Assembly (NCBI GenBank): GCA_019694515.1
Contig: JAIBBU010000005.1
Location: 62,001 to 126,000 of the forward strand
DNA: 64,000 nt
Direction of reading: 5' to 3'
Source: Oligoflexia bacterium
GTDB lineage: Bacteria; Bdellovibrionota_C; UBA2361; JBGSMV01
A program made the translations under genes and the position numbers. This document shows positions 3,494 to 61,086 of this stretch, piece by piece. Position 1 is the stretch's first letter. Each line of letters starts with the position of its first letter. Under the pieces are notes generated by a model that saw only the letters and a list, made by a program, of their open reading frames with translations, did not search any database and was not told the origin of the DNA.

Positions 3494-3714
3494 ATGGTAG
3501 GGTTTGTTTCGTCGCCCCAGAGCGGGCTCCTCGCAATGACGGAGATAGCATGCAGTCCTGTCATTGCGAGCGGAGCGAAGCAAACCCTAACGCTGAGGCA
3601 CGCTTTACCCTACCCAGTAATGAGTTGAAGAGAGATCCCTCACTCCCCCATCGCTGGGTATTTGCACTGTGAGGCAAAATGGTAGGGATCGCTTCGCTTC
3701 GCTCGCAATGACGG
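3494..3714. repeat. Cluster of GC-rich palindromic repeats (REP-like)
   Basis: The 432-bp gene-free stretch 3322-3753 holds three related units. CTCGCAATGAC (3530-3540) is the exact reverse complement of GTCATTGCGAG (3560-3570). Outer arms TAGGGTTTG (3498-3506) and CAAACCCTA (3581-3589) extend the palindrome. A third copy (about 3684-3714) carries GGGATCGCTTCGCTTCG then CTCGCAATGACGG. The motif TCATTGCGAGCGAAGCGAAGC is, to my knowledge, a recurring intergenic element in many bacterial genomes. I see no gene here. Confidence 0.75.
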
Positions 3715-18116: not shown

Positions 18117-19319
18117 ATGAAGGCAGCAGTGGCATTCGAAAAAGACCAAGATACGGAGTTCAGACGCGAAATCCTAAGTCCTGCGGAGTGCCGCGCCCTA
18201 GTCGACTCCCTGCGCGAGCAGGTCTATGTCTACCGATACACGCACCTAGTTCACGGGTGGGTCTTAGCGATCGGTACCCATATCGGGACCATTGCGCCCG
18301 CAATGGGCAGGCCGCTATCACTCGGCGGATTTCGTATCGTGCCGGAGGCTCGAGCCCAACTGCCTGGTTTTCTGCCTGAAAGGGAGGCGATCGAACTCAG
18401 CGTGGGGATGGAAGAAAAAGTCTTCTGGTCAAAGATTGCCCAGGTCGGCGGACCGCGCGGTCTCAAGAACCTCCAGCGGATTGTGGGCGGCAAATGTGTG
18501 CTGCTGGCTCCAGGCGGACGGGTGGGCGAAGCGCTCGATCTTGAGGCGCTTCAGTTTGCCGTTAGCTGTATGCACGATTTCGAAGCGCATAGCGGCATCT
18601 CGATCGTGACCGGACAGGATCTGGGCCACGGTCAGCTAAGTCAGGGCGGCCAAACCTCGCTTGAATTTCTGCGTGACAACTTTCATGGCTCCGTGATCGC
18701 GGATACCGGCAAGCCTACCGCCGAAGGCAACTTCTACATGCTCAAGGGTACGCTGAACGCATTTGATATTCCAATTAGCAGTGCGCGCATCGGCATAATC
18801 GGTGCTGGAAATATCGGCGAACACTTGATCAAGCGCCTTGTGCAGCATGGCGGCTCAGTTGTGGTGCTTGAGTCTTTACCTGCCAAGCAACAAAAGCTGA
18901 CTGCGCAGGGATTGAAAGTTTACGGTCAGGAACAGAAACAGGAGTTCTTGGGGCTGTCAGTCGATGCATTGGCAGTTAATGCCAACGGCGGAACCCTCGA
19001 CGACGAAGCCGTAAATCAGATCTGCTCCAATCCAGAGATCAAGATTATTTGTGGATGTGAAAATTTGGCTATGCCCAATAGCGCCAACGAAGCCAAGCTC
19101 TTGGCGGCAAGAAAAGTTTACTGTCATACCGAGCTTTGCGGAATGATGGGGTACCTGACTGCGGTCGAGGAATATCTGGCCAGAACAGCCGGCCAGCTGG
19201 TCAAGATTGAAGAGATGTATGAAGCCGCCGCTCAACTAGAAAATATCGGTTTCAAAGGTGCACGCGGAGTGCTTGAATCGGGCTATACCCGGTCCTTAAT
19301 GGAGCTGCTCCGCGGCTAA
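18117..19319 (+). CDS. Glu/Leu/Phe/Val dehydrogenase-family protein (divergent)
   Basis: A 400-residue protein whose C-terminal Rossmann fold is clear: ISSARIGIIGAGNIGEHLIK near residues 222-241, then LAVNANGGTLDDEAVNQICS and IKIICGCENLAMP. That order matches the ELFV amino-acid dehydrogenases. The Lys of RIVGGKCVLLAPGG and the Asp of IVTGQDLGHG align by eye with the catalytic Lys and Asp of leucine dehydrogenase. The N-terminal domain is divergent, and the usual second Lys is not in its expected place. Such enzymes oxidatively deaminate L-amino acids to 2-oxo acids. It lies 39 nt upstream of paaA on the same strand, which makes a phenylalanine-type substrate attractive but unproven. Confidence 0.65.
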   Translation: MKAAVAFEKDQDTEFRREILSPAECRALVDSLREQVYVYRYTHLVHGWVLAIGTHIGTIAPAMGRPLSLGGFRIVPEARAQLPGFLPEREAIELSVGMEEKVFWSKIAQVGGPRGLKNLQRIVGGKCVLLAPGGRVGEALDLEALQFAVSCMHDFEAHSGISIVTGQDLGHGQLSQGGQTSLEFLRDNFHGSVIADTGKPTAEGNFYMLKGTLNAFDIPISSARIGIIGAGNIGEHLIKRLVQHGGSVVVLESLPAKQQKLTAQGLKVYGQEQKQEFLGLSVDALAVNANGGTLDDEAVNQICSNPEIKIICGCENLAMPNSANEAKLLAARKVYCHTELCGMMGYLTAVEEYLARTAGQLVKIEEMYEAAAQLENIGFKGARGVLESGYTRSLMELLRG

Positions 19320-33511: not shown

Positions 33512-35212
33512 TTAGGTGGATGCCTGATCGCCATCGACTTCCCGCTGGCCTCCCGGCATTGGCACCAGCTGCACGTGGCGTCGATCTATGGGCTGACGGC
33601 GAAATTGCTCCACAGCGGCGTGCAGCCATGCATCGTCAAAGCGTAGCCCGATATTAGGCAGCAACAGATGCATCACCCGCAGATCATGTGATTTTAGGAT
33701 TCTGTCCTTTACGACTGTGGGACCGTCCGGCCGGCTCATGCGATCGCCGTTAATCATGTGATAGCGCGGACCGTCGACTTCGATTGCCAGATTCGGTTCT
33801 AAAAGAAAATCCAGATGAAATCCATGCAGCTGCACTTCACTGCGCACACCGGGATATAGGCGTTGTAGCGCCAATCCGATCTGTTCTTGAGGTGCACTGT
33901 TGATCGGCTGAAAGACATAACCATCCTGCTCCTCCATATTCAGCGCGGTTACCGCCCGTAGTTCCGCGGTGCGCCGCATCAATTCAGCGGCCTGCCGCAC
34001 CAAACCACCCTCCGAGCGCGAGAAGCGCTGCGTGCTGAGCTCCGGTTTATAGTGATACCAAAGCGGGTCGAAGAGCTCGCGGTCGCCGAGATAAGCAAAC
34101 GCCCATAGGGAAGCAGCTAACGAAAACGATCGGGACCGGTCCGGCGCGCGGTCTACAAGCTGCTGCTGGATAATGCGAAAGGCCCTTCTATCAGGGGCAT
34201 TCAGCCGTGCCAGTCCGTAGCATAGATTCACCAGGTCCACGACCGACAGCTCCGCGGGATGGTTCAGGGCAGCTCGAACCAAGCCCTCGCGCAGGTTGCG
34301 CCGGTCGTGGCGTCCCTTGCCACACGCCAAAACATAATTACCAATCGCGGCCAGATTCTGCGGTTGAGCGCGCTCCTGTGGATCCATTTCAGTTAGCGCC
34401 ACGGCAGTGCGGTGGAAGATTGCGGGATAACGGGGCGGCTTCGGATTGGCACACTCCGCCAGACTTATACAGACATCTGCGAGCTGTTCTTCGGAGATGT
34501 GAGAACCGGGTTCAAGCAGCGGGTTCAAAATCAGCCTCCACAGCGCATTGCGCTGCCCAAAGTCGAGGCGCCCCGCTTCTTCACAGCTCTCCGCCCGGCT
34601 TAAAGCCCGCACAAACCAGGCAATATCACTAGAATTGGCCTCCCCCAGTTTGGCCGGGAATACCTCGCACAACCGCGCAAATAGTCCGGACTGGACCATG
34701 CGCGCGGAGGTCATCGCCATCAGTACATTGGCCAGTTCGCGCGCGCCGAAATCCTCCAATCGCTCAACCGCCGGAACAAAGAAATCACCAAGGATTTTTT
34801 TTGCCGCAACAGCAATTTCACGCTGCGGGCCCGAGGCTGTGCCATTCTCATTGCGCAAGATTGCCTCATAGGAAAGATTTCTAACTTGAAGCACAATCGT
34901 AGCTAGATTGACAGGATCCAAACGATCGGCATGCCGGCTGTAAGCTCCTAAAATTGAAAGCCGGTCAAGCACACTGCGATCAGAGTCAGCAGCCAGCGCC
35001 AAAATCTGATTGTTAAAGCGCACCACTCCTGGACCAACGATGCGCCTCCCGTTGACCACGAAATCTCTATTCCCAACACGAGAAAGCTGCTGCCTGGACA
35101 AATCAATCTCAAGCTCATCGGCTCCTTCCCGGCGCAGCTCGGCGATCTCCTTCCGCGCTGTGCGTTGAATCGATCGGATTCGATCCTCAGTATGTCGTTG
35201 TTGACGTCCCAT
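33512..35212 (-). CDS. OPR/FASTK-like helical-repeat protein with C-terminal RAP domain
   Basis: A 566-residue protein. A series of degenerate helical repeats (about 80-430) share a pattern of Leu-Ala and Leu-Ala-Arg cores: LANVLMAMTSARM, DIAWFVRALSRAES, QLADVCISLAECANP, NLAAIGNYVLACGKG, DLVNLCYGLARLNAP and LAASLWAFAYLG. The C-terminus is a RAP domain, with HLDFLLEPNLAIEVDGPRYH and VVKDRILKSHDLRVMHL. This architecture is known from eukaryotic organelle RNA-processing proteins (FASTK, OPR) and a few bacteria. The RAP fold resembles Vsr-type endonucleases. The ATG at 35212 is one option; the frame is open to 35308. An RNA-binding or RNA-cleaving role is inference. Confidence 0.7.
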   Translation of the reverse strand: MGRQQRHTEDRIRSIQRTARKEIAELRREGADELEIDLSRQQLSRVGNRDFVVNGRRIVGPGVVRFNNQILALAADSDRSVLDRLSILGAYSRHADRLDPVNLATIVLQVRNLSYEAILRNENGTASGPQREIAVAAKKILGDFFVPAVERLEDFGARELANVLMAMTSARMVQSGLFARLCEVFPAKLGEANSSDIAWFVRALSRAESCEEAGRLDFGQRNALWRLILNPLLEPGSHISEEQLADVCISLAECANPKPPRYPAIFHRTAVALTEMDPQERAQPQNLAAIGNYVLACGKGRHDRRNLREGLVRAALNHPAELSVVDLVNLCYGLARLNAPDRRAFRIIQQQLVDRAPDRSRSFSLAASLWAFAYLGDRELFDPLWYHYKPELSTQRFSRSEGGLVRQAAELMRRTAELRAVTALNMEEQDGYVFQPINSAPQEQIGLALQRLYPGVRSEVQLHGFHLDFLLEPNLAIEVDGPRYHMINGDRMSRPDGPTVVKDRILKSHDLRVMHLLLPNIGLRFDDAWLHAAVEQFRRQPIDRRHVQLVPMPGGQREVDGDQAST

Positions 35213-35436
35213 AACGCTTAATATCGGCAGACTCTGCCCTTTATCCGCGACCACGCGGTGTCTGCAGCTTAAAAGAACTGCAGCGACGAAACTACCAGAG
35301 TACCGCAATAAGATTTCTCATTCTACCGCGAAGCCAATTTTTAAGCGGTTTGATTAAGATCTCACTTGCCTGTAAAATTAAGAGGGCTTTGGAGATGGTC
35401 GTATTCGGGGCGGGGGCCTCGTTCGGGGGAAGGGGG

Positions 35437-48833: not shown

Positions 48834-48851
48834 AGTTTGGAGAAAGGCAGC

Positions 48852-50894
48852 ATGCAACTAGAATCTTACGTAGAGGGTCATTGGTACCGCGGCACCGGTC
48901 AGCCTCAACAGAGTTTCAATGCCGTTACCGGCGAACCCTTAGCTGAAATCACCAGCAACGGCGTCGATTATAAGGGCACCCTTGATTTTGCCCGAAAGCA
49001 GGGGGCCGCGGCTCTAGGCGCAATGACATTCCATGCGCGTGCGCGCATGTTGAAGTCGCTGGCGCAGTATTTGAACAGCCGCAAATCGGAGCTCTATAAG
49101 TTGGCCCCGGCTTCGGGCGCCACCAAAGGCGACGCTTGGCTGGATATCGACGGCGGCATCGGTACGCTTTTTGCCTTCGCCAGCAAAGGCAAGAAAGAAT
49201 TCCCGGATCAAACTTTTTACGTGGAGGGCGAGGCTGAACAGATCTCACGGACCGGAACTTTTATCGGTCACCATCTCTGCGTGCCGCTGCAGGGCGCGGC
49301 TGTGCATATCAACGCCTTTAATTTCCCTTGTTGGGGAATGTTGGAAAAGCTTGCCTGCAATCTACTGGCCGGAGTGCCGGCGATCGTCAAACCCGCCAGC
49401 GTGACGGCGTACCTAACCGAAGCCATGGTGCGTCAGATCATTGAGTCCGGAATTCTGCCACCCGGCGCACTGCAGCTGATTTGCGGCAGCATCGGCGACC
49501 TGTTCGATCATCTCACCTGTCAGGATGTAGTGACCTTCACCGGTTCGGCAGCAACCGGTAGGAAATTGAAACAACATCCGGCGATTCTACAGAACTCGGT
49601 GCGCTTCAATATGGAGGCAGATTCGCTGAACTTCTCAATGCTGGGATCGGATGCAGTGCCCGGCACCCCTGAATTTGATCTGTTCATAAAGGAAGTCAGC
49701 AAGGAGATTACGGTCAAAGCCGGCCAGAAGTGCACGGCGATTCGCCGCACGATCGTGCCCAGCAGTCTGGCAGGGGAAGTTTTGGAGGCGCTGAAAAAGC
49801 GGCTCAGCAGCGTAACCGTCGGAGATCCTGCGAATGACAAGGTACGGATGGGGCCGCTGGTAAGCCGGGAGCAGCTTGCTGACGTACAAGCACGCATTGG
49901 GGAGCTCCGGCGCGCAGGGGAATTGGTTTATGGCTCTCTGGATAACCTCCAACTTTTGGGCGGCTCGAAAGAAAAGGGCGCTTTCTGTGCGCCGACTCTG
50001 ATTTACTGCAGCGATCCGCTGAAACATCCGGAGCCGCACGAGATTGAGGCTTTTGGTCCGGTCAGCACGATTATGCCTTACCAGGGGGTTGAGCAGGCGG
50101 TCGAACTAGCCAAGCTCGGCCGCGGCAGCCTGGTTGGCTCTCTCTTTACAGCTGACGATCAGACTGCCCGCACGGTAGTGCTGGGAACGGCTGCGTACCA
50201 TGGGCGCCTGATGTTGATTAACCGCTCGAGTGCGGCCGAATCTACGGGGCACGGTTCGCCATTACCGCATTTGGTGCATGGCGGCCCGGGCCGAGCCGGC
50301 GGCGGAGAAGAGATGGGGGGTAAACGCGGCGTGCTCCACTATATGCAGCGCACAGCGCTGCAAGGATCGCCGAGCACTTTGAGCGCCGTCATGGGGCAGT
50401 ACCTAAAGGGAGCAGATCGGCACTCCGATCGGGTACATCCGTTCCGTAAGTACTTCGAAGAGCTGAAAATTGGCGAGGCGCTGATTACGCACCGCCGTAC
50501 CATTACCGAGGCGGATGTAGTCAATTTCGCCGGTATTAGCGGAGATTTTTTTTACGCTCATATGGACGACATCGCGGCCCGACAATCCCTGTTTGAACGA
50601 CGGGTTGCCCACGGCTATTTCGTAATCGCCGCCGCTGCCGGCCTTTTTGTCGATCCGGCACCGGGCCCGGTCTTGGCGAATTACGGGATGGAAGGGCTGC
50701 GTTTCGTGAAGCCCGTTTATATCGGGGACTCCATTTACGTGAAGCTCACCTGCAAGTCAAAAACCGCCAAGGATGTGCCGGACGGGGTCACACCTCAGGG
50801 GGTAGTGGCGTGGGACGTGGAAGTTCTGAACCAGGCTGACGAAGCTGTAGCGCTCTACACGATTCTAACCCTCGTAAAGCGCACGATTTTTTGA
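48852..50894 (+). CDS. paaZ: Oxepin-CoA hydrolase / 3-oxo-5,6-dehydrosuberyl-CoA semialdehyde dehydrogenase PaaZ
   Basis: A 680-residue bifunctional enzyme that opens the oxepin ring and oxidises the resulting aldehyde. The N-terminal aldehyde dehydrogenase (about 1-515) has the general-base Glu in [15 protein letters not shown] and the nucleophilic Cys in [16 protein letters not shown]. The C-terminal MaoC-type R-hydratase (about 540-680) has [20 protein letters not shown] and [16 protein letters not shown]. The C-terminal lyase module in the same chain matches typical PaaZ. The ATG at 48852 follows GGAGAAAGG. It is the last recognised gene of the operon. Confidence 0.95.
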
Positions 50895-50947
50895 GCGTGC
50901 TATCGTTCAGCATGGCGCCTTTGCCGAAAGATCCTTAGAATGCGCCA

Positions 50948-51139
50948 ATGGACGACGAAACTGAAAGAGGTTCGGCCTTAGCTGAAGAGCTGCGGGATCT
51001 AAAGGCAAAAATATTCTCCGCCGTGGCGCAAAGGGAACGCATGCCTCAACCGCTTTTTTGGTCGCTTTTTAATTCCCGCCTGCACGATATAAAACGGCGC
51101 AAGAATCTGGGACGGATCCTAGAAGAACTGCTGGACTAA
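50948..51139 (+). CDS. Small helical protein of unknown function
   Basis: A 63-residue, charged protein predicted to be two helices (SALAEELRDLKAKIFSAVAQ; SLFNSRLHDIKRRKNLGRIL). It has no signal peptide or membrane segment. The ribosome binding site is weak, and no family is recognised. It begins 53 nt after paaZ on the same strand, but its composition gives no link to phenylacetate catabolism. Confidence 0.45.
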   Translation: MDDETERGSALAEELRDLKAKIFSAVAQRERMPQPLFWSLFNSRLHDIKRRKNLGRILEELLD

Positions 51140-51165
51140 ATTTGAACTGAAACGCTTTTTGCCGT

Positions 51166-51186
51166 TGGCGGCGGTCGTCGCCGCCA
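51166..51186. promoter_or_regulatory. Perfect 8-bp hairpin after the 63-residue gene
   Basis: TGGCGGCG (51166-51173) pairs perfectly with CGCCGCCA (51179-51186) around GTCGT. No T-tract follows in either direction, so it is not a canonical terminator; it may still slow transcription between the paa operon region and the SH3 gene. Confidence 0.4.
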
Positions 51187-51322
51187 GTCATGCCAGTTAA
51201 CAAAAATGCTTGCTCAGAGGGGAGAGAGCCGGTATTAAGCATGTCGTGCTACCTTTTGTCCCACCAAGCTCGATCCTCTGGAAAGATAGCGATCCTGAGA
51301 AACCTATAACTTTGGGAATATT

Positions 51323-51865
51323 ATGAACCTCCTAATTAACATCAAGTTCGTTAGGGCGACTCTGCTCCCCAGAGCTCTCTTGTTTACTGCCTTCTGCTTA
51401 GTGCTGAGTTCAATCGCGCTCGATGCCGCCGCCGCTTCGGGCAGCGACACCATTTTTGTGCAAACGCGCGCGGCAAAGCTGCGCGGTCAGCCACAGATGT
51501 GGGGCAGCGCTGTCAGTGACCTGGCTTACGGGGACAGGCTGCAGGTGCTGGATCAGGGCTCCGACTCAGGGTGGCTCAAGGTTCGCACCGCCGGCGGCGC
51601 ACAGGGATACATACATAGCTCGGCCGTCTCGACGAAGAAGGTAATCCTCAGCTCCCGTACCGGCATGCAAAGCAATGCCGCCGACATGTCCGATGTGGTG
51701 TTAGCAGGAAAGGGCTTCAATCGCCAAGTTGAAGAAGAGTATGCTCGTGCGCAGGGCTTCGATTTTTCACAGGTGAACAAGGTCGAAAAGATCAAAGTTA
51801 ACAGCTCGGAGCTTGCGCAGTTTGTAAAAGCGGGCCGCTTGCAGCCGACTAAGAGGGAGGGCTAG
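51323..51865 (+). CDS. Exported bacterial SH3-domain protein
   Basis: A 180-residue protein with a signal peptide (about 13-38, LLPRALLFTAFCLVLSSIAL) and one bacterial SH3-type domain (about 45-105: DTIFVQTRAAKLRGQPQMWG; LAYGDRLQVLDQGSDSGWLK; GGAQGYIHSSAVSTKKV). Such domains bind cell-wall or protein ligands outside the membrane. The C-terminal 70 residues (EEEYARAQGFDFSQVNKVEK) are unassigned. It is 2 nt upstream of an M48 lipoprotein gene and probably works with it. Confidence 0.8.
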   Translation: MNLLINIKFVRATLLPRALLFTAFCLVLSSIALDAAAASGSDTIFVQTRAAKLRGQPQMWGSAVSDLAYGDRLQVLDQGSDSGWLKVRTAGGAQGYIHSSAVSTKKVILSSRTGMQSNAADMSDVVLAGKGFNRQVEEEYARAQGFDFSQVNKVEKIKVNSSELAQFVKAGRLQPTKREG

Positions 51866-51867
51866 AA

Positions 51868-52758
51868 ATGAAGAACTTTATCCTCTGCGCTTTGACTGTA
51901 GCCCTCGCCGGCTGCTCTCCTCAAGCCAAACAGCTTGGCGCCTCATTGCTGAGCCAGACGGGCTTGGTCTCTGAAAGCCAGGCTAACACGGCCTTTAGTG
52001 TCGGCGAGAAACTGAGCAAAGCGGCCGGGCCATTAACCGAAGAACAGGAATATTATCTTGGTCGCGGCGTCTCAGCCATGATCCTGGCGCAATATCCGCT
52101 CTATCAGAATCAAGCCGTAACCAGCTATGTCAATCGCGTTGGCAACGCCGTAGCTGCCGTTTCAGACCGGCCCGAAACTTTCTCGGGTTATCACTTTGCG
52201 ATACTTGATACATCCGAGGTCAACGCAATTTCAGCTCCGGGCGGATTCGTTTTCGTTTCGCGCGGTTTTCTGCGTCAAATTCCGGATGAGGACGCGCTTG
52301 CCGCGGTCCTAGCGCACGAGGTGGGACATGTGGTTAAAGGTCACGGCGTTAACGCAATTTCTAAAGCGAACCTGACTGAAGCCTTAACCATGGTAGGCAA
52401 AGAAGCTGCCTCAAGTTACGGGGCACCAGAGGTCCAAGCCCTGACGGCCGCTTTTGGTGACAGCGTCAAAGATGTCTTCAATACCCTGATCAAGAATGGC
52501 TACAGCCGCTCGCAGGAGTACGAGGCGGATGAATATGCCGTGACGCTGCTCGGCCGCGTCGGCTACTCCCAAGGTTCATTAGTGCAGATGTTGGAGGTGC
52601 TGCAATCCGCTGGGGAGCAAAAGGGCGGCTGGTATGATACCCATCCAAGCGCGCGTAAACGCATCAGTGAGGTCAAAGACCTCGATATCGCGCTCAGCAC
52701 GAACACTCCCGGATACGAGACCCGCACTGCGCGCTATAAGAAGAACGTAAAGCTGTGA
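51868..52758 (+). CDS. M48 family metalloprotease lipoprotein
   Basis: A 296-residue lipoprotein. The lipobox is LAGC (about residues 13-16). The M48 zinc motif is in AAVLAHEVGHVVKGHGV and the third ligand region in GYSRSQEYEADEYAVTLLGR; the segment SEVNAISAPGGFVFVSRGFL is also typical. It probably works in the periplasm or on the outer membrane on misfolded envelope proteins, like BepA or YggG. It is translationally close to the SH3 protein, and its stop lies inside a 16-bp tandem repeat that ends just before the cyclase gene. Confidence 0.88.
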   Translation: MKNFILCALTVALAGCSPQAKQLGASLLSQTGLVSESQANTAFSVGEKLSKAAGPLTEEQEYYLGRGVSAMILAQYPLYQNQAVTSYVNRVGNAVAAVSDRPETFSGYHFAILDTSEVNAISAPGGFVFVSRGFLRQIPDEDALAAVLAHEVGHVVKGHGVNAISKANLTEALTMVGKEAASSYGAPEVQALTAAFGDSVKDVFNTLIKNGYSRSQEYEADEYAVTLLGRVGYSQGSLVQMLEVLQSAGEQKGGWYDTHPSARKRISEVKDLDIALSTNTPGYETRTARYKKNVKL

Positions 52759-52808
52759 GGCAGTAAAGCTGTGAGGCAGTAAAGCTGTGAGGCAGTAAAG
52801 CTGTGAGA
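52747..52808 (+). repeat. 16-bp tandem repeat spanning a stop codon and the next ribosome binding site
   Basis: The unit GTAAAGCTGTGAGGCA is repeated exactly at 52747-52762, 52763-52778 and 52779-52794, then partly at 52795-52808. The first copy contains the M48 stop codon; the last partial copy leads to the cyclase ATG at 52811. Each copy carries GTGAGG, and the 16-bp unit shifts frame, so copy number changes the junction without altering either protein. Confidence 0.85.
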
Positions 52809-52810
52809 CC

Positions 52811-54913
52811 ATGACCTACCACGGCACTGGTCGTCGAAAAATCGCCGGGCTGCTGGTAATATCACTGCTCAGCGCGCTGCTTAGCGCAGTTGGGATCCAT
52901 TACAATTGGCTGCAGGAGCTTGAAAGCCGCACCTGGGATTGGCGGCTACGCTTGAGCGCGCCCGCAGTTCCCCATGATCCGCAGATCAAGATAATCGCCG
53001 TAGATCAGGCCGCCCTTGATTCTAGAGCTGCCGACCAGGTTGTCTGGCCATGGCCGCGCTCGATGTATGTGCCGGTGCTCAAATATTTGGAGCTCAGCGG
53101 CGCCGCCGGCGTCGCTTTTGACATTATCTTCTCCGAAGGCGGTTGTTATCAGGTAACGGACGACCGCGCTTTTGCAGAAGCCGTAGCCCAAAGCTCCATT
53201 CCGGTAATCTCATCAGTTGTGGCTAGCCCCAATCCCCCCAAACAAACGATCGACACTCCGCTCGAATTTAAGCGCAAGATTGAGCTTAATACGGAGCAAA
53301 GCCACTTTGACCGGCGCTACTTAGCCCACCCTCGCACCCCACAGGCGAACTCTATGGTACTGCCGATTCCAGAGCTGCTCTCCGCGAGCGCGGGCTTTGG
53401 CGCCGTCACCCAGCAGCCCGATAGCGACGGTGTGTTTCGTCACATCTTGCCCGGAGTTAAATATCGCGATCTCCCGATCCTGGCGCTGCCGTTTGCGCTC
53501 TACGAACGTATTACACCGGCTGGAGAGCAGCGAGAAATTACACCGTTCTTAGATCAAGAAGGTCGCGCGGCCCTTCGATTCCCTGGCGCCGCACATACCT
53601 ATCAAACTATTTCAATCGACGCGGTAATCGAGAGCTACCGCCGTGTCACTGAGCATGCAGCCGATCCTCCGCCGGTGCCGTTAGAGCTATTTAAAGATGC
53701 AGCTGTATTCATCGGATTAACCGCACCCGGTCTGATGGATCTGCGTGCCACCCCCTTGGATGCACGACTCTCTGGGGTGGAATATAACGCGGCAGCTCTA
53801 GACAATCTCCGACACGGACACTTTGCAAAGAAACTAGGCTTGGCCCCAGCGCTGCTGGCAGTAATCCTGGCACTGCTCTGTTTGAACGCCGCAATTCTCT
53901 TCTCCCGCAACACCATGGGGGCGCTCTTCTGGGCGTTGCTGATCTTCGCGGCGATGCTCGGTGGGGCGGGGTTGTTTGCCGGATACGGGATATGGATGCC
54001 GCTTCTCTGGCCACTCCTCAGTATGGTGGGTGCCATGCTTGCGGCGCTGCGGCTTCAATACCAGCTCGAGGGCCGGCAGCTGCAATTTATCCGCAATGCA
54101 TTCAGACATTACGTGAGCCCTGATGTAATTGAAAAGATTTCGGCTGATCCAACGGCGCTCTCTCTAGGCGGCGAGAAGCGGGAGCTCACGATCTTTTTTT
54201 CAGATATCGCCAATTTTTCCAGTATCTCGGAAAGACTTGACCCGGCCAAGTTGGCAAAACTACTGAACCGCTACCTTGAGGCGATGACGACTGTGATCCT
54301 CGAGCATCGCGGCACGCTTGATAAATATATCGGCGATGGGATTGTGGCATTTTGGAATGCTCCAATCGACGTGCCGAATCATCCGAGTCTCGCCGTACAG
54401 GCCGCTTTGGAATGTCAGGCCCGGCTGAAAGCGCTCAATCCAGATTTTGAAGCTGATTTCGGGACCGCTTTGAAGACCCGTATCGGTATCCATACGGACA
54501 GCGCCAGCGTCGGCAATTTCGGCTCACAGTCGCGTTTCGATTATACTGTTATGGGAGATGCGGCCAACCTGGCTTCTCGTCTGGAAGGAGTAAATAAGGT
54601 TTTTGGTACTGAGATCCTGGCCTCAGAGAATTGCATTCAGGGCTGCTCCGGCATCCATGCACGTCGAATTGGCGCAGTCAGAGTGGTAGGTCGGGCGGAG
54701 AGCATTGCCGTGTATGAGCCCTTAGGAGCAGCGTCCGGAGATACATTTTCCCGGGCATTGGCATGCTTCGAAGCCGGCGAATTTGCAAAGGCCGCTCAAC
54801 TATTTTCGTCACTAGCCCGCGATCCAGTGGCACAAGCGTATTTAAAGCGCATACAGTCGGAACAACCGGCCGCATCCGGATGGAGCGCGGTGTGGATTCT
54901 AACTAATAAGTAA
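52811..54913 (+). CDS. CHASE2-domain adenylate/guanylate cyclase (class III)
   Basis: A 700-residue receptor cyclase. An N-terminal membrane segment (about 11-30) leads to a CHASE2 sensor (about 35-330, periplasmic; DWRLRLSAPAVPHDPQIKII near the start), three membrane helices (about 335-415) and a C-terminal class III cyclase domain (about 440-640). Metal-binding Asp residues are in ELTIFFSDIANFSSISERLD and DKYIGDGIVAFWNAPIDVPN; the later block TRIGIHTDSASVGNFGS and FDYTVMGDAANLASRLEGV is typical. Adenylate or guanylate specificity cannot be decided by eye. A tandem repeat forms its leader. Confidence 0.9.
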   Translation: MTYHGTGRRKIAGLLVISLLSALLSAVGIHYNWLQELESRTWDWRLRLSAPAVPHDPQIKIIAVDQAALDSRAADQVVWPWPRSMYVPVLKYLELSGAAGVAFDIIFSEGGCYQVTDDRAFAEAVAQSSIPVISSVVASPNPPKQTIDTPLEFKRKIELNTEQSHFDRRYLAHPRTPQANSMVLPIPELLSASAGFGAVTQQPDSDGVFRHILPGVKYRDLPILALPFALYERITPAGEQREITPFLDQEGRAALRFPGAAHTYQTISIDAVIESYRRVTEHAADPPPVPLELFKDAAVFIGLTAPGLMDLRATPLDARLSGVEYNAAALDNLRHGHFAKKLGLAPALLAVILALLCLNAAILFSRNTMGALFWALLIFAAMLGGAGLFAGYGIWMPLLWPLLSMVGAMLAALRLQYQLEGRQLQFIRNAFRHYVSPDVIEKISADPTALSLGGEKRELTIFFSDIANFSSISERLDPAKLAKLLNRYLEAMTTVILEHRGTLDKYIGDGIVAFWNAPIDVPNHPSLAVQAALECQARLKALNPDFEADFGTALKTRIGIHTDSASVGNFGSQSRFDYTVMGDAANLASRLEGVNKVFGTEILASENCIQGCSGIHARRIGAVRVVGRAESIAVYEPLGAASGDTFSRALACFEAGEFAKAAQLFSSLARDPVAQAYLKRIQSEQPAASGWSAVWILTNK

Positions 54914-54923
54914 CCACCTACTT

Positions 54924-54952
54924 TTGACTCCTTCTAATTTCCGCGCTAAAAC
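54924..54952 (+). promoter_or_regulatory. Sigma70-type promoter in front of the structured RNA
   Basis: TTGACT (54924-54929) and TAAAAC (54947-54952) are exactly 17 bp apart. The predicted start of transcription is near 54959. The first helix of the RNA candidate begins about 30 nt later. There is no open frame with a plausible start directly behind it, which fits an RNA promoter. Confidence 0.6.
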
Positions 54953-54991
54953 TGCATTCGCACTACGTCGTCGCATTGCACAAGGAAAGGG

Positions 54992-55329
54992 GCGGACTGA
55001 CACCTCTAGCGGACTCAAGACTTTATGCCGTACGGGGGAAAGTTAAGAGACGTTATGTGTCAGTTCGCTGTCAATTTGGGTTTGCCGTAGAGCCAAAGTC
55101 CTCGGGTCTCTCCACGTTCTAAGTATACCCGAGTCACTGCTCTACGGTTGCAGGGGGACGCGCTGCGCCACCGTACTCGAACGGTGCGCTTTCTGAGACG
55201 CTTTTCACCTAACGGTGAAGCTGGTGCCGCCATCGCAACTCGGGACCTGATCGGTCCAGTGCGAGGCATCAAGCAGCGATCAGAAATGTCACGGATCTAC
55301 TTCGCTCCGATCGTGACAGGCGCGTCCCC
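54992..55329 (+). ncRNA. Candidate structured non-coding RNA (unidentified class)
   Basis: Gene-free stretch 54914-55509. I find a dense set of nested helices: 54992-55003 with 55057-55068 (12 bp); 55004-55007 with 55046-55049; 55019-55024 with 55039-55044; 55085-55093 with 55139-55147 (9 bp perfect); 55101-55107 with 55127-55133 (7 bp); 55154-55164 with 55319-55329 (11 bp closing a junction) holding 55165-55174/55181-55189, 55193-55202/55275-55283, 55204-55209/55214-55219, 55223-55228/55265-55270, 55233-55237/55260-55264, 55243-55247/55253-55257 and 55287-55297/55309-55318. The wobble pairs I noted are G-U only if read on the plus strand. No match to RNase P, tmRNA, SRP or 6S landmarks was seen. 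Confidence 0.7.
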
Positions 55330-55366
55330 AGTGGGAGAGGCAAAGGTTACAAGCAATGCGGCACGT

Positions 55367-55381
55367 AGTGAATTTTTCACT
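55367..55381. terminator. Hairpin after the structured RNA, possible 3' end
   Basis: AGTGAA (55367-55372) and TTCACT (55376-55381) pair perfectly around TTT. The loop is T-rich but no T-tract follows, so termination here is only possible. It lies about 40 nt after the last helix of the RNA candidate. Confidence 0.35.
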
Positions 55382-55384
55382 CCC

Positions 55385-55426
55385 TGCTGTTTCCAATCTG
55401 CTATTTCCAATCCGCTATTTCCAATC
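55385..55426. repeat. Three 14-bp direct repeats
   Basis: TGCTGTTTCCAATC, TGCTATTTCCAATC and CGCTATTTCCAATC lie head to tail at 55385-55398, 55399-55412 and 55413-55426. They fall between the structured RNA candidate and the YitT gene and are too few and too close together for a CRISPR array. Confidence 0.7.
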
Positions 55427-55509
55427 TGGGCGGCCGCTAAGGCATGCATGATGTCATGCAGCTATTTAACTGCATTTACACCCCGGGTCGGGAACGTTAA
55501 CCTAGATAG

Positions 55510-56364
55510 ATGCCGGTGCTTCAAATAATGCTTAAGGCCCTTTTTCTAGCACTCGGTGTGCTCTCGGCCTGCTTTGGCATCAGAGGGTTTTTGGTACCCA
55601 GCGGTTTTATTGATGGGGGCATTACGGGCCTGTCGATGCTGGGTTCCCGCGTCACCGCTATACCTTTGAGCGCGCTGCTGATCCTGATTAACGCTCCGTT
55701 CTTGCTGATCGCTATTCGTCCGTTGGGCGTGCGATTTGTGCTGATTAGCGGCTGCTCGATTGCCGCTTTAGCGCTGGCGATTGAGGGTTTACAGCTGCCC
55801 GAAGTGACTTCTGATCATCTGCTGGCCGCCGTTTTCGGAGGAGTCTTTCTTGGTGCTGGTATTGGACTTTCAATCCGAGGCGGCGGTGTCTTGGACGGAA
55901 CCGAAATTCTGGCGCTGCTATTTAGCAAGCGTTTTGGGACTACAGTCGGCGATATCGTCTTGGTGTTGAATGTCGCGATCTTCGGCTGCGCGGCGGTATT
56001 CCTGGGGATCGAGCCGGCGCTATATTCAATGCTGACCTATTTCTCCGCATCCAAAACCGTTGACTTTCTAATCCACGGTATCGAAGAGTTTTATGGAGTC
56101 ATGATCGTTTCCTCGCGCAGCACAGAGGTTAAAACCGCGCTGATCGGGGAAGCCGAGCGGGGAGTGACCGTTTATCGAGGGCGGGGCGGGCGTTCCGATG
56201 TGGAGCAAGATATTCTGTTTTGCGTTGCGACGCGTTTGGAGATCCCAAGAATTATCCGGATGGTTCGAGCAATCGACGCCGACGCATTCTTTGTGACCCA
56301 TCATATTAGTGAAGTAGGGGGCGGATTAATAAAACGGCTGCCGCTGCCTTCCGGACACAGCTAA
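55510..56364 (+). CDS. YitT family membrane protein (DUF161/DUF2179)
   Basis: A 284-residue polytopic protein. Five to six membrane helices fill the first 190 residues, with the family stretches CFGIRGFLVPSGFIDGGITG near 22-41, GLSIRGGGVLDGTEILALLF and FSASKTVDFLIHGIEEFYGV. The soluble C-terminal DUF2179 domain (about 195-270) has VSSRSTEVKTALIGEAERGV, GVTVYRGRGG and DADAFFVTHHISEVGGG. Function is not established for the family; a transport role is often suggested. The structured RNA candidate lies upstream. Its stop overlaps that of the converging HEAT-repeat gene. Confidence 0.88.
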   Translation: MPVLQIMLKALFLALGVLSACFGIRGFLVPSGFIDGGITGLSMLGSRVTAIPLSALLILINAPFLLIAIRPLGVRFVLISGCSIAALALAIEGLQLPEVTSDHLLAAVFGGVFLGAGIGLSIRGGGVLDGTEILALLFSKRFGTTVGDIVLVLNVAIFGCAAVFLGIEPALYSMLTYFSASKTVDFLIHGIEEFYGVMIVSSRSTEVKTALIGEAERGVTVYRGRGGRSDVEQDILFCVATRLEIPRIIRMVRAIDADAFFVTHHISEVGGGLIKRLPLPSGHS

Positions 56365-58928
56365 CTTCGAGAGGCGGCGGCGCCTATCATGCGACCGCTG
56401 CCGATCTGCGCAGGAGAAATTTCGGCTGCGGCGCGATAGCTTTTCGCGCTGAATCTGATGTCTTTTAAACGGCCGTCCCGCGCTATTTCCAGTTTACGAA
56501 TCCAGGTGGAATCACGGGCCCCGATCACATGCCCAGCAGCCGCATGCGGAAAAATCGTACGGGTGCAATTTACTAAATTATCAGCTTCGCCCTCGAAATT
56601 AGCTCCCGTTCCGACTGCACAACTAACCAGATAAACCGTGCCGCCCGGCTTTAAACATCGCCCCGCATTCGCGGCACGAAATCTGTCGGCGTCCCCCAAA
56701 TCAAAAAATTGCGATTCCTCAGTTCCAGACCCCAAGCGCATCAATCTCTTCTTGCCATGCCCCGCCATGATCACGATCTCAGCTTGATTTGATTCTTCGG
56801 TATTGCTGCTTAGCACTTCAAGCAGCTCGGGATCATCAGAAGCCTCGAAGTAGCGCACCCGATAGTGCGGCATGAGCTCGTGAAGTTTCTCCGAGAACCC
56901 GAATAAAAATCCATTATAATCGTCCCGTGCCATTGTGACTAACATCACCGGGCGTCGATCAAGCGGATCGGGCCTCAGCCGTTCATTTACGATCGCAATT
57001 AGATCATCGGGCTTGAATCGAAAAGGTTGCGTGATCTTTAACTCAGCACAGCTCGCCAGCGCCCGAGTATAGCTTTCGATTTCGTGACGGCGGCTACCCC
57101 GCGAGTCTTCGGCCAAGAGGGCAAGACCTTTGAGCAATCCATCACGTGCTTGCTCGGTGTCGAATGCCGCGTTGGCGGATCGTCTGCGCTCAAGATCGCC
57201 GTATACCGGATCGCTGATAGTCTCCAGAACAGCACTAGCTGCGGAGGCGCTGCCCGCCAACATCAGGAGCCGCAGAGCGCTTTCGGAGATGTCGCTGCGC
57301 GAATCCCGGGCTGAATTTACACAGATGGCGAGAGCCCGCGCGGGGGCAGGGCTGGAGTGAATCAGTGCGCCGGCCGCCTCCAGCCGCACCTGTTCGTAAG
57401 GCGAGTCAAGGGCGGCTGTCACCAGATTCAAATCTTGTGGATCACGACCTACGGCCGTGTGCAGCTGAGTTAGCTCCAATTGGTACGCTGAGTCCGGCTG
57501 CGCTGGCAAATCCAGGTCATATTCGGCCGCTGCAACTGCCTGCTCAACCCGCTGAAGCTTGAGACGATGATTGAGTTGTTCAACAACCCCCCGCGCTTGC
57601 AGCTCTAACTTAGGCCAGGCGCCCGCCCGCGTCCTAAATTCTTCAAGCGCTGTTAGATCTGATCGCTCTCCGCAAACACCTAGAATATCAAGGGCGAGAT
57701 GGAGACTGGCGGGATCGGCGTCCTGATCGCGCAAGGTCGTGGCAGCCAGGCGCCGCGCCAAGAGCGGGGCTGCCTCGGCAACCCGCCTTCCCGCCAAGGA
57801 CTGCGCTGTTCCTCGCAGCTGCTGCGACTCAAGCAGTGATAAGAGCGCGCAATCGGTCTCCCAATCTCCGATCGCACAAAGTCCGCGCACCAACTGCTCT
57901 GTTGCGGGCACTGACTCGGCACCGCCACACAGCTCTCTAAGATATTCCTGTCGGCCTTCCTTTCCCGCGGCTCCGAGTAATCTAGCCGCAATCGTAATGC
58001 TTAAGGCTGCACCTTTGCGCTGCCCTGCCTTGGCGAGCCCCGTACGGATCTCAACCTGGAGCTCGTCACTTTCGGCTTCTGTTGCCAGCTGGTAGAGCGC
58101 TCGCACGATCCGGTCTTGCTGCTCAAGATCATTCGATGCACCAAGCAGCTTGAGCAGGTTCGGGACTGTCTTTGAAAGGCTCTGCAGACCGGCCACCTTC
58201 GTCACGCGAGATTGAATTTCTTCGGGCTGATCCTTTGCAGTGATAACCTCCAGTAAAGATCTCAAGTCTGACCATTCAAGATCAAGCGACTCTAATGTCC
58301 CCAAGGCCTGCCGGCGAAACTCCAGCGGAGCTTCTTTGGAGCGTGCAATCTCGATTAAAGCGCGTCGGGGATAATACCCACAAATTTCCGTGAAGAGATC
58401 GCTACGCAATGACATCGGTACACGTTCGTCAGTTAGCACATGGGCGATCGGGCGGTAATCGGCATCGGCGCGGGAGCGATCCGTGTTCATGGCGGAGAAG
58501 ACCTCAATTGCTCGGCGGCGCAGATACAGCGGAGCTTGGCCGTCCGCGATTAAATTGATCACCGCGGAGAGGGTCTCCGGCGCGTCAATCGCCGCAATAG
58601 CATCGAGTGCCGCAAGCTTGGCGCCAAGATTCCGCAAAGTGGTTGCGGAACGGAGCGTGGCGGTAAGCCCCGGGAGGGCCTCTCGACCGATTGCAGCAAG
58701 AGTCGTGGGCGCAACCGGATCCTTGCCCAGACTCGCGACTGCCACCCCAATCAGTGCCTGGCTCGGAGAGCTTCGCGATGGTCGCAGTGGTTCCAGGGCT
58801 GGAATTTCGGCCGGACGCTGCGGCGCGATATCTGAGACGATGCCGTGGGGCAAGCTGCCAGCAACGCTCTCAGAGTCCGTAGTTACGGCCGCGCTGGGTA
58901 TCGGCGTCTGTAGTAGTAGTCGCGGCAC
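56361..58928 (-). CDS. HEAT-repeat protein with C-terminal caspase-like (clan CD) domain
   Basis: An 855-residue protein without signal peptide or membrane segment. Residues about 60-600 form many degenerate HEAT-like helical pairs (LAALDAIAAIDAPETLSAVI; GTLESLDLEWSDLRSLLEVI; AAGALIHSSPAPARALAICV). The C-terminal 180 residues begin with PVMLVTMARDDYNGFLFGFS and carry a His-Gly motif in IVIMAGHGKKRLMRLG and a Cys in VYLVSCAVGTGANFEGEADN, spaced 46 residues apart, as in clan CD peptidases (caspase, CHAT, gingipain). A GTG at 58926-58928 follows GGAGG and is my start; TTG 58943 is an alternative. A scaffold-coupled protease is inference. Confidence 0.65.
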   Translation of the reverse strand: MPRLLLQTPIPSAAVTTDSESVAGSLPHGIVSDIAPQRPAEIPALEPLRPSRSSPSQALIGVAVASLGKDPVAPTTLAAIGREALPGLTATLRSATTLRNLGAKLAALDAIAAIDAPETLSAVINLIADGQAPLYLRRRAIEVFSAMNTDRSRADADYRPIAHVLTDERVPMSLRSDLFTEICGYYPRRALIEIARSKEAPLEFRRQALGTLESLDLEWSDLRSLLEVITAKDQPEEIQSRVTKVAGLQSLSKTVPNLLKLLGASNDLEQQDRIVRALYQLATEAESDELQVEIRTGLAKAGQRKGAALSITIAARLLGAAGKEGRQEYLRELCGGAESVPATEQLVRGLCAIGDWETDCALLSLLESQQLRGTAQSLAGRRVAEAAPLLARRLAATTLRDQDADPASLHLALDILGVCGERSDLTALEEFRTRAGAWPKLELQARGVVEQLNHRLKLQRVEQAVAAAEYDLDLPAQPDSAYQLELTQLHTAVGRDPQDLNLVTAALDSPYEQVRLEAAGALIHSSPAPARALAICVNSARDSRSDISESALRLLMLAGSASAASAVLETISDPVYGDLERRRSANAAFDTEQARDGLLKGLALLAEDSRGSRRHEIESYTRALASCAELKITQPFRFKPDDLIAIVNERLRPDPLDRRPVMLVTMARDDYNGFLFGFSEKLHELMPHYRVRYFEASDDPELLEVLSSNTEESNQAEIVIMAGHGKKRLMRLGSGTEESQFFDLGDADRFRAANAGRCLKPGGTVYLVSCAVGTGANFEGEADNLVNCTRTIFPHAAAGHVIGARDSTWIRKLEIARDGRLKDIRFSAKSYRAAAEISPAQIGSGRMIGAAASRS

Positions 58929-59128
58929 TAAACCTCCAATCAAACCTACCCAATGTTATGCGGCCAAGGGAGGGCAGAGTGCGGTCCGGCTAGCGGCGAT
59001 TTGCCTAGCGACTTCAGCTGGTTACTTCGACTGCGAAGGTTCGGATTGGCGCTCCTGGCTGGCCGCACAGCGATGCGCTGGATCTGACTTAAATTGAGTA
59101 ATCTAACTACCTGTTATATCAATAACGG

Positions 59129-59806
59129 ATGATTCCGATTAGCGATGCACTCACACAAATTATCGCCCGCAGCTCATTCCTGGAGTTTGGCCTGCATTAC
59201 AAGCTTTTGAATCTTACCCAGGTAGCGCGCTTCATTCGGCCGCAAATTGAGGCCCGCACCAAGAAAGATGTAAAAGAATCGGCCATCTTGATGGCACTCT
59301 CGCGCTTCCAGGGCGCAGTGGCGCGGCAAACAAAGCGCCGCGACGAGAGTTTTAAGATCGAGCAATTAAGTGTTCAAACCGATCTGGCGGTACTTAGTCT
59401 GGAGCGTAGCAGCGATAACCATAATCGCATCAGCAAGCTCTATGCGGAGATCCAAAAACGCCGCGGCTATCTGACGATCTGCGAAGGGCTCAGTGAGATC
59501 ACGGTCATAATCGAGAACGAATACCTGGCACTAGCGGAAAAGCTTCTAAAAACCCAGCTTGCCCAAGCGACCGGCGATGCGGCCGCTATTCGCATCAAAT
59601 TCGACCCGCGCTACTTAGAAACCCCTGGTTTTCTTTTCGTGATCCTGCAGCAGCTAGCGTTTCAGGGCATCAATCTGCTCGAAGTGGCCTCCACTAAGAC
59701 CGAATTTATCCTGTACTTGCGGATGCAGGACGTCCGGCTAGCGTTCGACTCACTACATAACAAGTTTCAACTGATGTGGCGGCTGCCTGAGAGTCGAGGA
59801 CGTTAA
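59129..59806 (+). CDS. ACT-domain-like protein of unknown function
   Basis: A 225-residue soluble protein. The N-terminal 100 residues are helical (FLEFGLHYKLLNLTQVARFI; ESAILMALSRFQGAVARQTK). The C-terminal 130 residues contain two ACT-like beta-alpha-beta halves: RGYLTICEGLSEITVIIENE and TPGFLFVILQQLAFQGINLL with VASTKTEFILYLRMQDVRLA. Such domains usually bind small ligands such as amino acids and regulate a partner. No enzyme is fused to it. The 3' end overlaps the stop of the converging Sel1 gene by 4 bp. Confidence 0.6.
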   Translation: MIPISDALTQIIARSSFLEFGLHYKLLNLTQVARFIRPQIEARTKKDVKESAILMALSRFQGAVARQTKRRDESFKIEQLSVQTDLAVLSLERSSDNHNRISKLYAEIQKRRGYLTICEGLSEITVIIENEYLALAEKLLKTQLAQATGDAAAIRIKFDPRYLETPGFLFVILQQLAFQGINLLEVASTKTEFILYLRMQDVRLAFDSLHNKFQLMWRLPESRGR

Positions 59807-61086
59807 CCCCGCAGATTTCTAAGCAGCGTGTCAGCTTCAGAGTTACCCAGCGCAGCCGCGCGCCGGAAATAATCGGCCGCGCGGCTGGTGTCGCGCAGCA
59901 CTCCATCGCCGTTCATATAAAGCTTGCCAAGCATCAAGAGCGCATTGGAATCGTTTTGTTCTGAGGCCTTTTCGAACCAGGCCCGCGCGGTGGCAAAATT
60001 CTTCTTCACCCCATCTCCGCGCGCGTACATGCGTCCGAGAGCGGTCTGCGCTTTAGCGTATCCGGATATAGCGAGCGGCTCCCAGATCTCCCGCGCACTA
60101 GCGTAGTCACTGCGGTTGGCGGCAGCCCGGCCGCGCTCAAAATCAGCGGCGCTATTGGAGCTGCTTGGAGCCGCCGGCGCCCGCACTGACAGATTGGGTT
60201 CCGGTACGTCAAGCTTAGCAGGCATGGCCGGTGCGGCAACTTTCGGAGCAGAAGGGGAGAAGGGGATCTGCAGATCCGGATTCTCCAGCACCGCCCGCTG
60301 CAGCGAGGGGTGCACGCGATCGAGCAGCACTGCCAGTGAGTCGCTCTTGCCCAACTGCTTACCATAGAAAAACAGCCGGATGAGTTTCTGAATCGCAGGT
60401 ATCTGCTCCTGCTCAATATTGCCGCTGTCCAGATCGGTGCGTGCCAGTAAATCAAGATCGGCGCGGCTTAACTTAGCTGCAGCGAATTCCTGTTCCATCT
60501 CGGCTGATGCCGCGCTGTTGGCCGTGACGGTCTGGCCGAATTCAAAACCACCGGCCTTAATCGATACGAAGCGGGAATTTGAAGGGGCGGCCTCGCTGTC
60601 GGCATTGAGATCTCCGCGATCCGCATCCGGAGCCGAAGGCTCATGCTCATGCAAGGCAGCCGCATCTTCGGAATCGGGAATTGCTGCTCCATCCTGCTGG
60701 TCGGCGGGCTGCGATCCGTCACCAAAAGTGGGCATTGGACCTTCCTGGTCCTCCGGCATCGCACCCATATCAGGCCCGGACGGCATTGCGCCCTGGGCCA
60801 GGGGCGCCAATTCCCCCACGATCTTGCGGAGCCCAAAGACCGGCTTATCAAAGCTCTGATAGGGCGAGCGGCTCTCCGCAGGAGCTGCCGCTTCTCCACC
60901 CAGCACTGATGCCACCCGTTCGCCTTCGGAGCCGCGATTTAGCTGGAAGAGCAGCGCACCGACGAGACCTCCAAGCAGCAGAACCAGTGCACCAAGAATC
61001 ATGAGCGCGTTATTTGAACCCCCTTTTTTCGGGGCGGAGTTGCTAGTTGAAGCAGGAGTGGAAGGGGGGGTACTTGTGTCTGTCAT
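59803..61086 (-). CDS. Membrane-anchored Sel1-repeat protein
   Basis: A 427-residue protein. One membrane helix near residues 28-48 (LMILGALVLLLGGLVGALLF) follows a short Ser/Thr/Pro-rich tail. A long acidic and Ala/Pro-rich linker comes next, then Sel1-like repeats at the end: YAKAQTALGRMYARGDGVKK and SNALLMLGKLYMNGDGVLRD, with AADYFRRAAALGNSEADTLL. Sel1 repeats usually bind protein partners in envelope or signalling complexes. No partner is identifiable nearby. It diverges from the GNAT gene across a palindromic region. Confidence 0.8.
   Translation of the reverse strand: MTDTSTPPSTPASTSNSAPKKGGSNNALMILGALVLLLGGLVGALLFQLNRGSEGERVASVLGGEAAAPAESRSPYQSFDKPVFGLRKIVGELAPLAQGAMPSGPDMGAMPEDQEGPMPTFGDGSQPADQQDGAAIPDSEDAAALHEHEPSAPDADRGDLNADSEAAPSNSRFVSIKAGGFEFGQTVTANSAASAEMEQEFAAAKLSRADLDLLARTDLDSGNIEQEQIPAIQKLIRLFFYGKQLGKSDSLAVLLDRVHPSLQRAVLENPDLQIPFSPSAPKVAAPAMPAKLDVPEPNLSVRAPAAPSSSNSAADFERGRAAANRSDYASAREIWEPLAISGYAKAQTALGRMYARGDGVKKNFATARAWFEKASEQNDSNALLMLGKLYMNGDGVLRDTSRAADYFRRAAALGNSEADTLLRNLRG

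Follow-up and report, generated by a model that had tools for sequence, protein, structure and literature searches.

The large structured RNAs known from bacteria beyond the translation machinery are few, and three that were recently solved are RNA-only assemblies (PMC12286853). Copies of OLE, and likewise of GOLLD, are joined by symmetric kissing loops, while phages and prophages are the typical carriers of ROOL and GOLLD, with tRNA islands often close by (PMC12286853). Here, we describe an intergenic element of about 415 nt within a 64-kb stretch of bacterial DNA (the window) that resembles GOLLD, ROOL, and OLE, RNAs of poorly understood function, in its large size, intergenic location, and multiple predicted helices. 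It also has a palindromic loop that recalls the kissing loops of OLE and GOLLD, and the favorable calculated self-duplex of this loop could allow homo-oligomers to form. However, GOLLD RNAs are longer (many over 800 nt; PMC12286853), and the window contains no tRNA and, according to ARAGORN, no tmRNA.

Other RNAs with joined ends offer further points of comparison. RNase P RNA is like the element in length, in the long helix closing its ends, and in its folding z-score, while tmRNA is similar in length and paired ends. In retron ncRNAs, an inverted repeat joins the ends and several hairpins lie within, and both features are also predicted for the element. However, it is about twice as long as a usual retron ncRNA, and the ten proteins encoded around it (48837-61086) include neither a reverse transcriptase nor a transposase according to Pfam.

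Predicted architecture of the element

A cyclase gene and a gene for a YitT-like membrane protein (yitT) border the 596-bp intergenic gap that holds the element, and both are encoded on the plus strand like the element itself (Table 1). The predicted fold is closed as a whole by helix P1, inside which the P2/P3 arm, the P4 hairpin, the P5 domain, and a joining strand follow one another, with mean pair probabilities of 0.9-1.0 for most helices. The helices named in an earlier note on this DNA reappear in this fold, though the boundaries given there (54992-55329) were too narrow and missed the outer 18-bp helix P1. A U-run at 55373-55377 marks the putative 3' limit, and yitT starts 140 nt past the end of P1. 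Immediately downstream of the element, a 14-nt unit (GCTATTTCCAATCTG-like) is repeated three times in tandem (55386-55428).

Table 1. Features of the locus and helices of the predicted plus-strand fold
Feature	Position	Strand	Details
Cyclase gene, upstream neighbor	52811-54913	+	CHASE2 and guanylate/adenylate cyclase domains (Pfam)
Possible promoter	54924-54952	+	TTGACT-17-TAAAAC; 9/12 match, -10 without final T
Whole element, best delimited	54959-55377	+	-192.7 kcal/mol, z about -8.4
P1, 5' strand	54961-54979	+	CACTACGT(C)GTCGCATTGC, single bulged C; 18-bp closing helix with 55353-55370, pair probability 0.98-1.0
P2/P3 arm	54981-55078	+	13-bp helix 54991-55003/55057-55069 including G54995-U55065, pair probability 1.0
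P3 apical loop	55025-55038	+	14 nt; palindrome CCGTACGG at 55028-55035
P4 hairpin	55084-55148	+	10-bp (55084-55093/55139-55148) and 7-bp helices, pair probability 0.97-0.98; 19-nt loop 55108-55126
P5 domain	55154-55329	+	11-bp helix 55154-55164/55319-55329 closes a four-way junction, within which a three-way junction is nested
Joining strand	55330-55352	+	AGTGGGAGAGGCAAAGGTTACAA, 23 nt, purine-rich, back to P1; candidate pseudoknot with 55108-55115
P1, 3' strand	55353-55370	+	GCAATGCGGCACGTAGTG; predicted pairing with 54961-54979
Possible 3' end	55371-55377	+	AATTTTT right behind P1; no classical terminator
yitT gene, downstream neighbor	55510-56364	+	YitT-like membrane protein with DUF2179 (Pfam)

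Two parts of the fold could mediate further contacts. The palindrome in the P3 loop is a self-complementary octamer (CCGUACGG), and the self-duplex of this loop is calculated at -16.0 kcal/mol. If the joining strand formed the candidate pseudoknot with the P4 loop, the duplex energy would be -11.4 kcal/mol, which is not significant (P=0.13).

We rejected a protein-coding gene as an explanation of the locus because the open reading frames that cross it (55148-55528 on the plus strand and 55060-55272 on the minus strand) do not match any protein family. The Rfam search suggested in the earlier note likewise gave no match at gathering thresholds, and permissive filters combined with a cutoff of E<=10 did not change this, using Rfam 15 with its coverage of, e.g., RNase P, tmRNA, group I/II introns, HEARO, GOLLD, ROOL, OLE, and riboswitches. 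RNase P RNA (RF00010; 276 bits) and tmRNA (RF00023; 141 bits) of this genome are encoded elsewhere, i.e., on contigs C46 and C26, respectively. At the tmRNA locus (L028 near 1380-1520, on contig C26 of genome G000), the 5' part of tmRNA, CTGATATTATGGGGGTGTAAAGGTATCGAC..., is present twice, about 110 nt apart.

Folding energy and strand

Folding energies were compared to those of dinucleotide shuffles. On the plus strand, the interval 54992-55329 reaches -157.8 kcal/mol (z -7.07), a value attained by 0 of 100 shuffles, and the z-score of about -8.4 for the P1-closed element was obtained for 54959-55378 with 60 shuffles. For 54953-55380, the z-score is -6.66 on the plus strand and -5.85 on the minus strand. 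By the same method, the RNase P RNA and tmRNA of this genome score -6.9 and -1.5, respectively.

When 340-nt windows over the 64 kb are corrected for composition, the locus ranks first. A scan of 350 kb of the genome in 420-nt plus-strand windows, 3279 in number, places it sixth, whereas it is less prominent in 300-nt windows, which are too short to include P1. The 420-nt windows ranked above it are either coding (L131:2521) or belong to a repeated palindrome family of different sequence (L125, L131:10291, and L120). Deep folding as such is therefore not unique in this genome, whose palindromic repeats fold as deeply though they are not known ncRNAs. Within the sample, however, few folds of this depth are branched, single-copy, and intergenic. 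Another intergenic region (L126:14950-15300; contig C30 of G000, about 34950-35300) also folds strongly into a branched structure with hairpins of 17 bp and 16 bp; it is not a member of the palindrome family and may be a second branched deep fold of this kind.

The earlier note had also pointed to G-U wobbles on the plus strand, which would be C-A mismatches on the minus strand. Four of the five G-U pairs that it listed are present in the minimum-energy fold, but U55203-G55220 is not, with 55220-55222 pairing to 55272-55274 instead. The asymmetry itself is real: G-U pairs make up 14 of 147 pairs in the plus-strand fold and 3 of 135 in the minus-strand fold. Base composition does not account for this difference, given that shuffles yield 18.7 and 14.7 G-U pairs on the plus and minus strand, respectively (P about 0.02, binomial calculation). 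We take this as moderate evidence for selection on an RNA encoded by the plus strand.

Candidate expression signals

The promoter proposed in the earlier note does exist at the position given, but it is weakly supported since an equally good score occurs in 6% of shuffles of 54900-54960 (P=0.06), and a stricter scan found neither a promoter nor a classical terminator at the locus. The start expected from this promoter (54958-54960) falls at the first base of P1 (54961), and AATTTTT follows right after P1. As expression signals, these two coincidences at either end of P1 are suggestive only.

Search for relatives

Roughly 680 genomes, among them the available ones of the same class, were searched by DNA comparison or with covariance models, and neither these searches nor those of phages and plasmids or limited pattern scans detected a homologue of the element. 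BLAST found none in 144 genomes and none in phages or plasmids. Two single-sequence covariance models representing the P5 domain (R1) and P2 to P4 (R2) found none in the available genomes of the same order and class or in some 380 genomes across the domain, keeping in mind that the reach of such models is limited, that diverged homologues could escape them, and that the nearest comparison is at the level of the order. Pattern scans of viral contigs (joining strand, P4 loop, and P1/P3 junction) and of GTDB genome contigs (joining strand) produced chance hits only. Short BLAST hits in genomes of the same order (e.g., L006, L012, L018, and L020), which cover joining strands or helix segments, were rejected because no such locus showed three of six tested motifs or the fold and several of them fall within or next to open reading frames.

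Synteny did not lead to the RNA either. In the same order and class, cyclase orthologues sharing 42-48% identity have other genes behind them and never the element, and a protein scan of genome contigs with the cyclase found nothing. At 22 loci with yitT homologues (close relatives of the species not among them), neither BLAST nor the models matched upstream, where the gap is mostly too short for the element. For the nearest yitT relatives (46-51% identity), which come from several unrelated genomes and, within the class, from two other families, the upstream gaps are too short. The yitT-like gene itself is uncommon in the class (two other genomes, ~50% identity) and has equally close relatives outside of it; it may therefore have been acquired horizontally. 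We also considered that the RNA had arrived together with yitT from the lineages of that gene's nearest relatives. However, R2 found nothing in the phylum of the nearest relative, and BLAST against 268 genomes of a second candidate donor phylum gave only two hits of 25-30 nt (E about 0.01, one genome each), so that this scenario was discarded.

Within its own genome, the element is single-copy by BLAST, R1, and R2 (assembly about 92% complete). With no homologue found and orthologous loci lacking it, we regard the element as single-copy and lineage-specific. The lack of homologues, and thus of an alignment in which covariation could show, counts against an independent RNA, as do the weak promoter, the lack of a classical terminator, the pseudoknot energy that falls short of significance, and the equally deep folding of the palindromic repeats in this genome.

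Discussion

Folding energy, strand asymmetry, intergenic position, and the lack of an Rfam match bear out the earlier suggestion of a structured plus-strand RNA of unknown class, and a functional plus-strand RNA at this locus appears likely to us. Nothing in particular speaks for a ribozyme, which had been proposed as one option. Our preferred reading, with a probability of roughly 0.55, is that 54959-55377 encodes a structured ncRNA that stands alone, exists in one copy, is independent of yitT, and is not the remnant of a mobile element. This reading draws on the z-scores, pair probabilities near 1, the G-U asymmetry, the lack of any protein family, the positions of the expected start and the U-run relative to P1, and the palindromic loop.

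The location of the element on the same strand as yitT, 140 nt ahead of its start and with no terminator found in between, could also indicate a long 5' leader (about 54959 through 55510) whose fold would regulate yitT expression in the manner of a riboswitch or attenuator. We consider this unlikely: the nearest yitT homologues are not preceded by the element, with 0 of 22 homologue loci giving a match and most gaps being too short, no riboswitch of Rfam matches, and P1 ties off the fold well ahead of yitT. With ends tied together by P1 and a closed multi-domain shape, the predicted structure is closer to free-standing structural RNAs than to leaders. P1 also constitutes a terminal inverted repeat, and the locus could be what is left of, or carried as cargo by, a mobile or palindromic element (MITE-like, retron-like, or of a similar kind), with a function at the level of DNA or of that element. 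This would fit its lineage-specific position, with other genes following the cyclase orthologues, and the abundance of other palindromic repeats in this genome; a near-copy, AACTGCATTYRCAC, also flanks the element (54950-54963 and 55468-55481), though a match of this size is expected by chance. Against such an origin, which we regard as quite improbable, stand the single copy, a sequence unrelated to the palindrome family of this genome, a fold that branches into several independent domains instead of forming a single long palindrome, the G-U asymmetry that indicates RNA, and the absence of reverse transcriptase and transposase genes among the neighbors scanned. That an unusually stable fold simply arose by chance in ordinary intergenic DNA and has no function would agree with the lack of homologues and the weak expression signals, but we give it very little credence in view of z-scores of -7 to -8.4, no shuffle out of 100 folding as deeply, several long and consistently nested helices, and the strand asymmetry.

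The palindrome family of this genome consists of MITE-like repeats of ~200 nt with ends TGTCATTGCGAGCGGAGCGAAGCAA...TTGCTTCGCTCCGCTCGCAATGACA that are scattered through the genome (window 3500-3710, L125:160-410, L131:10360-10600, L127:16780-17000, L120 about 280-480, and L127 about 18440-18640).

If the element is a free-standing RNA, its transcription would begin around 54959 just 5' of P1 and end in the U-run behind this helix. The transcript would then act in trans as a folded body and not through antisense pairing, most likely by self-assembly or by binding a partner via its exposed elements. More specifically, the P3 loop could form a symmetric kissing homodimer of 8 bp, and the purine-rich joining strand may pair with the P4 loop. 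We would only tentatively view the element as founding a hitherto undescribed class of bacterial RNAs that are large, closed, and built of multiple domains, possibly as an RNA-only homodimer held together via the P3 loop. With its sharply defined fold and a size small enough for probing or cryo-EM, it would be a tractable new case among such RNAs. Its host lineage has hardly any sequenced relatives, and restriction of the element to this one lineage would show that RNAs of this kind escape genome scans that depend on covariation.
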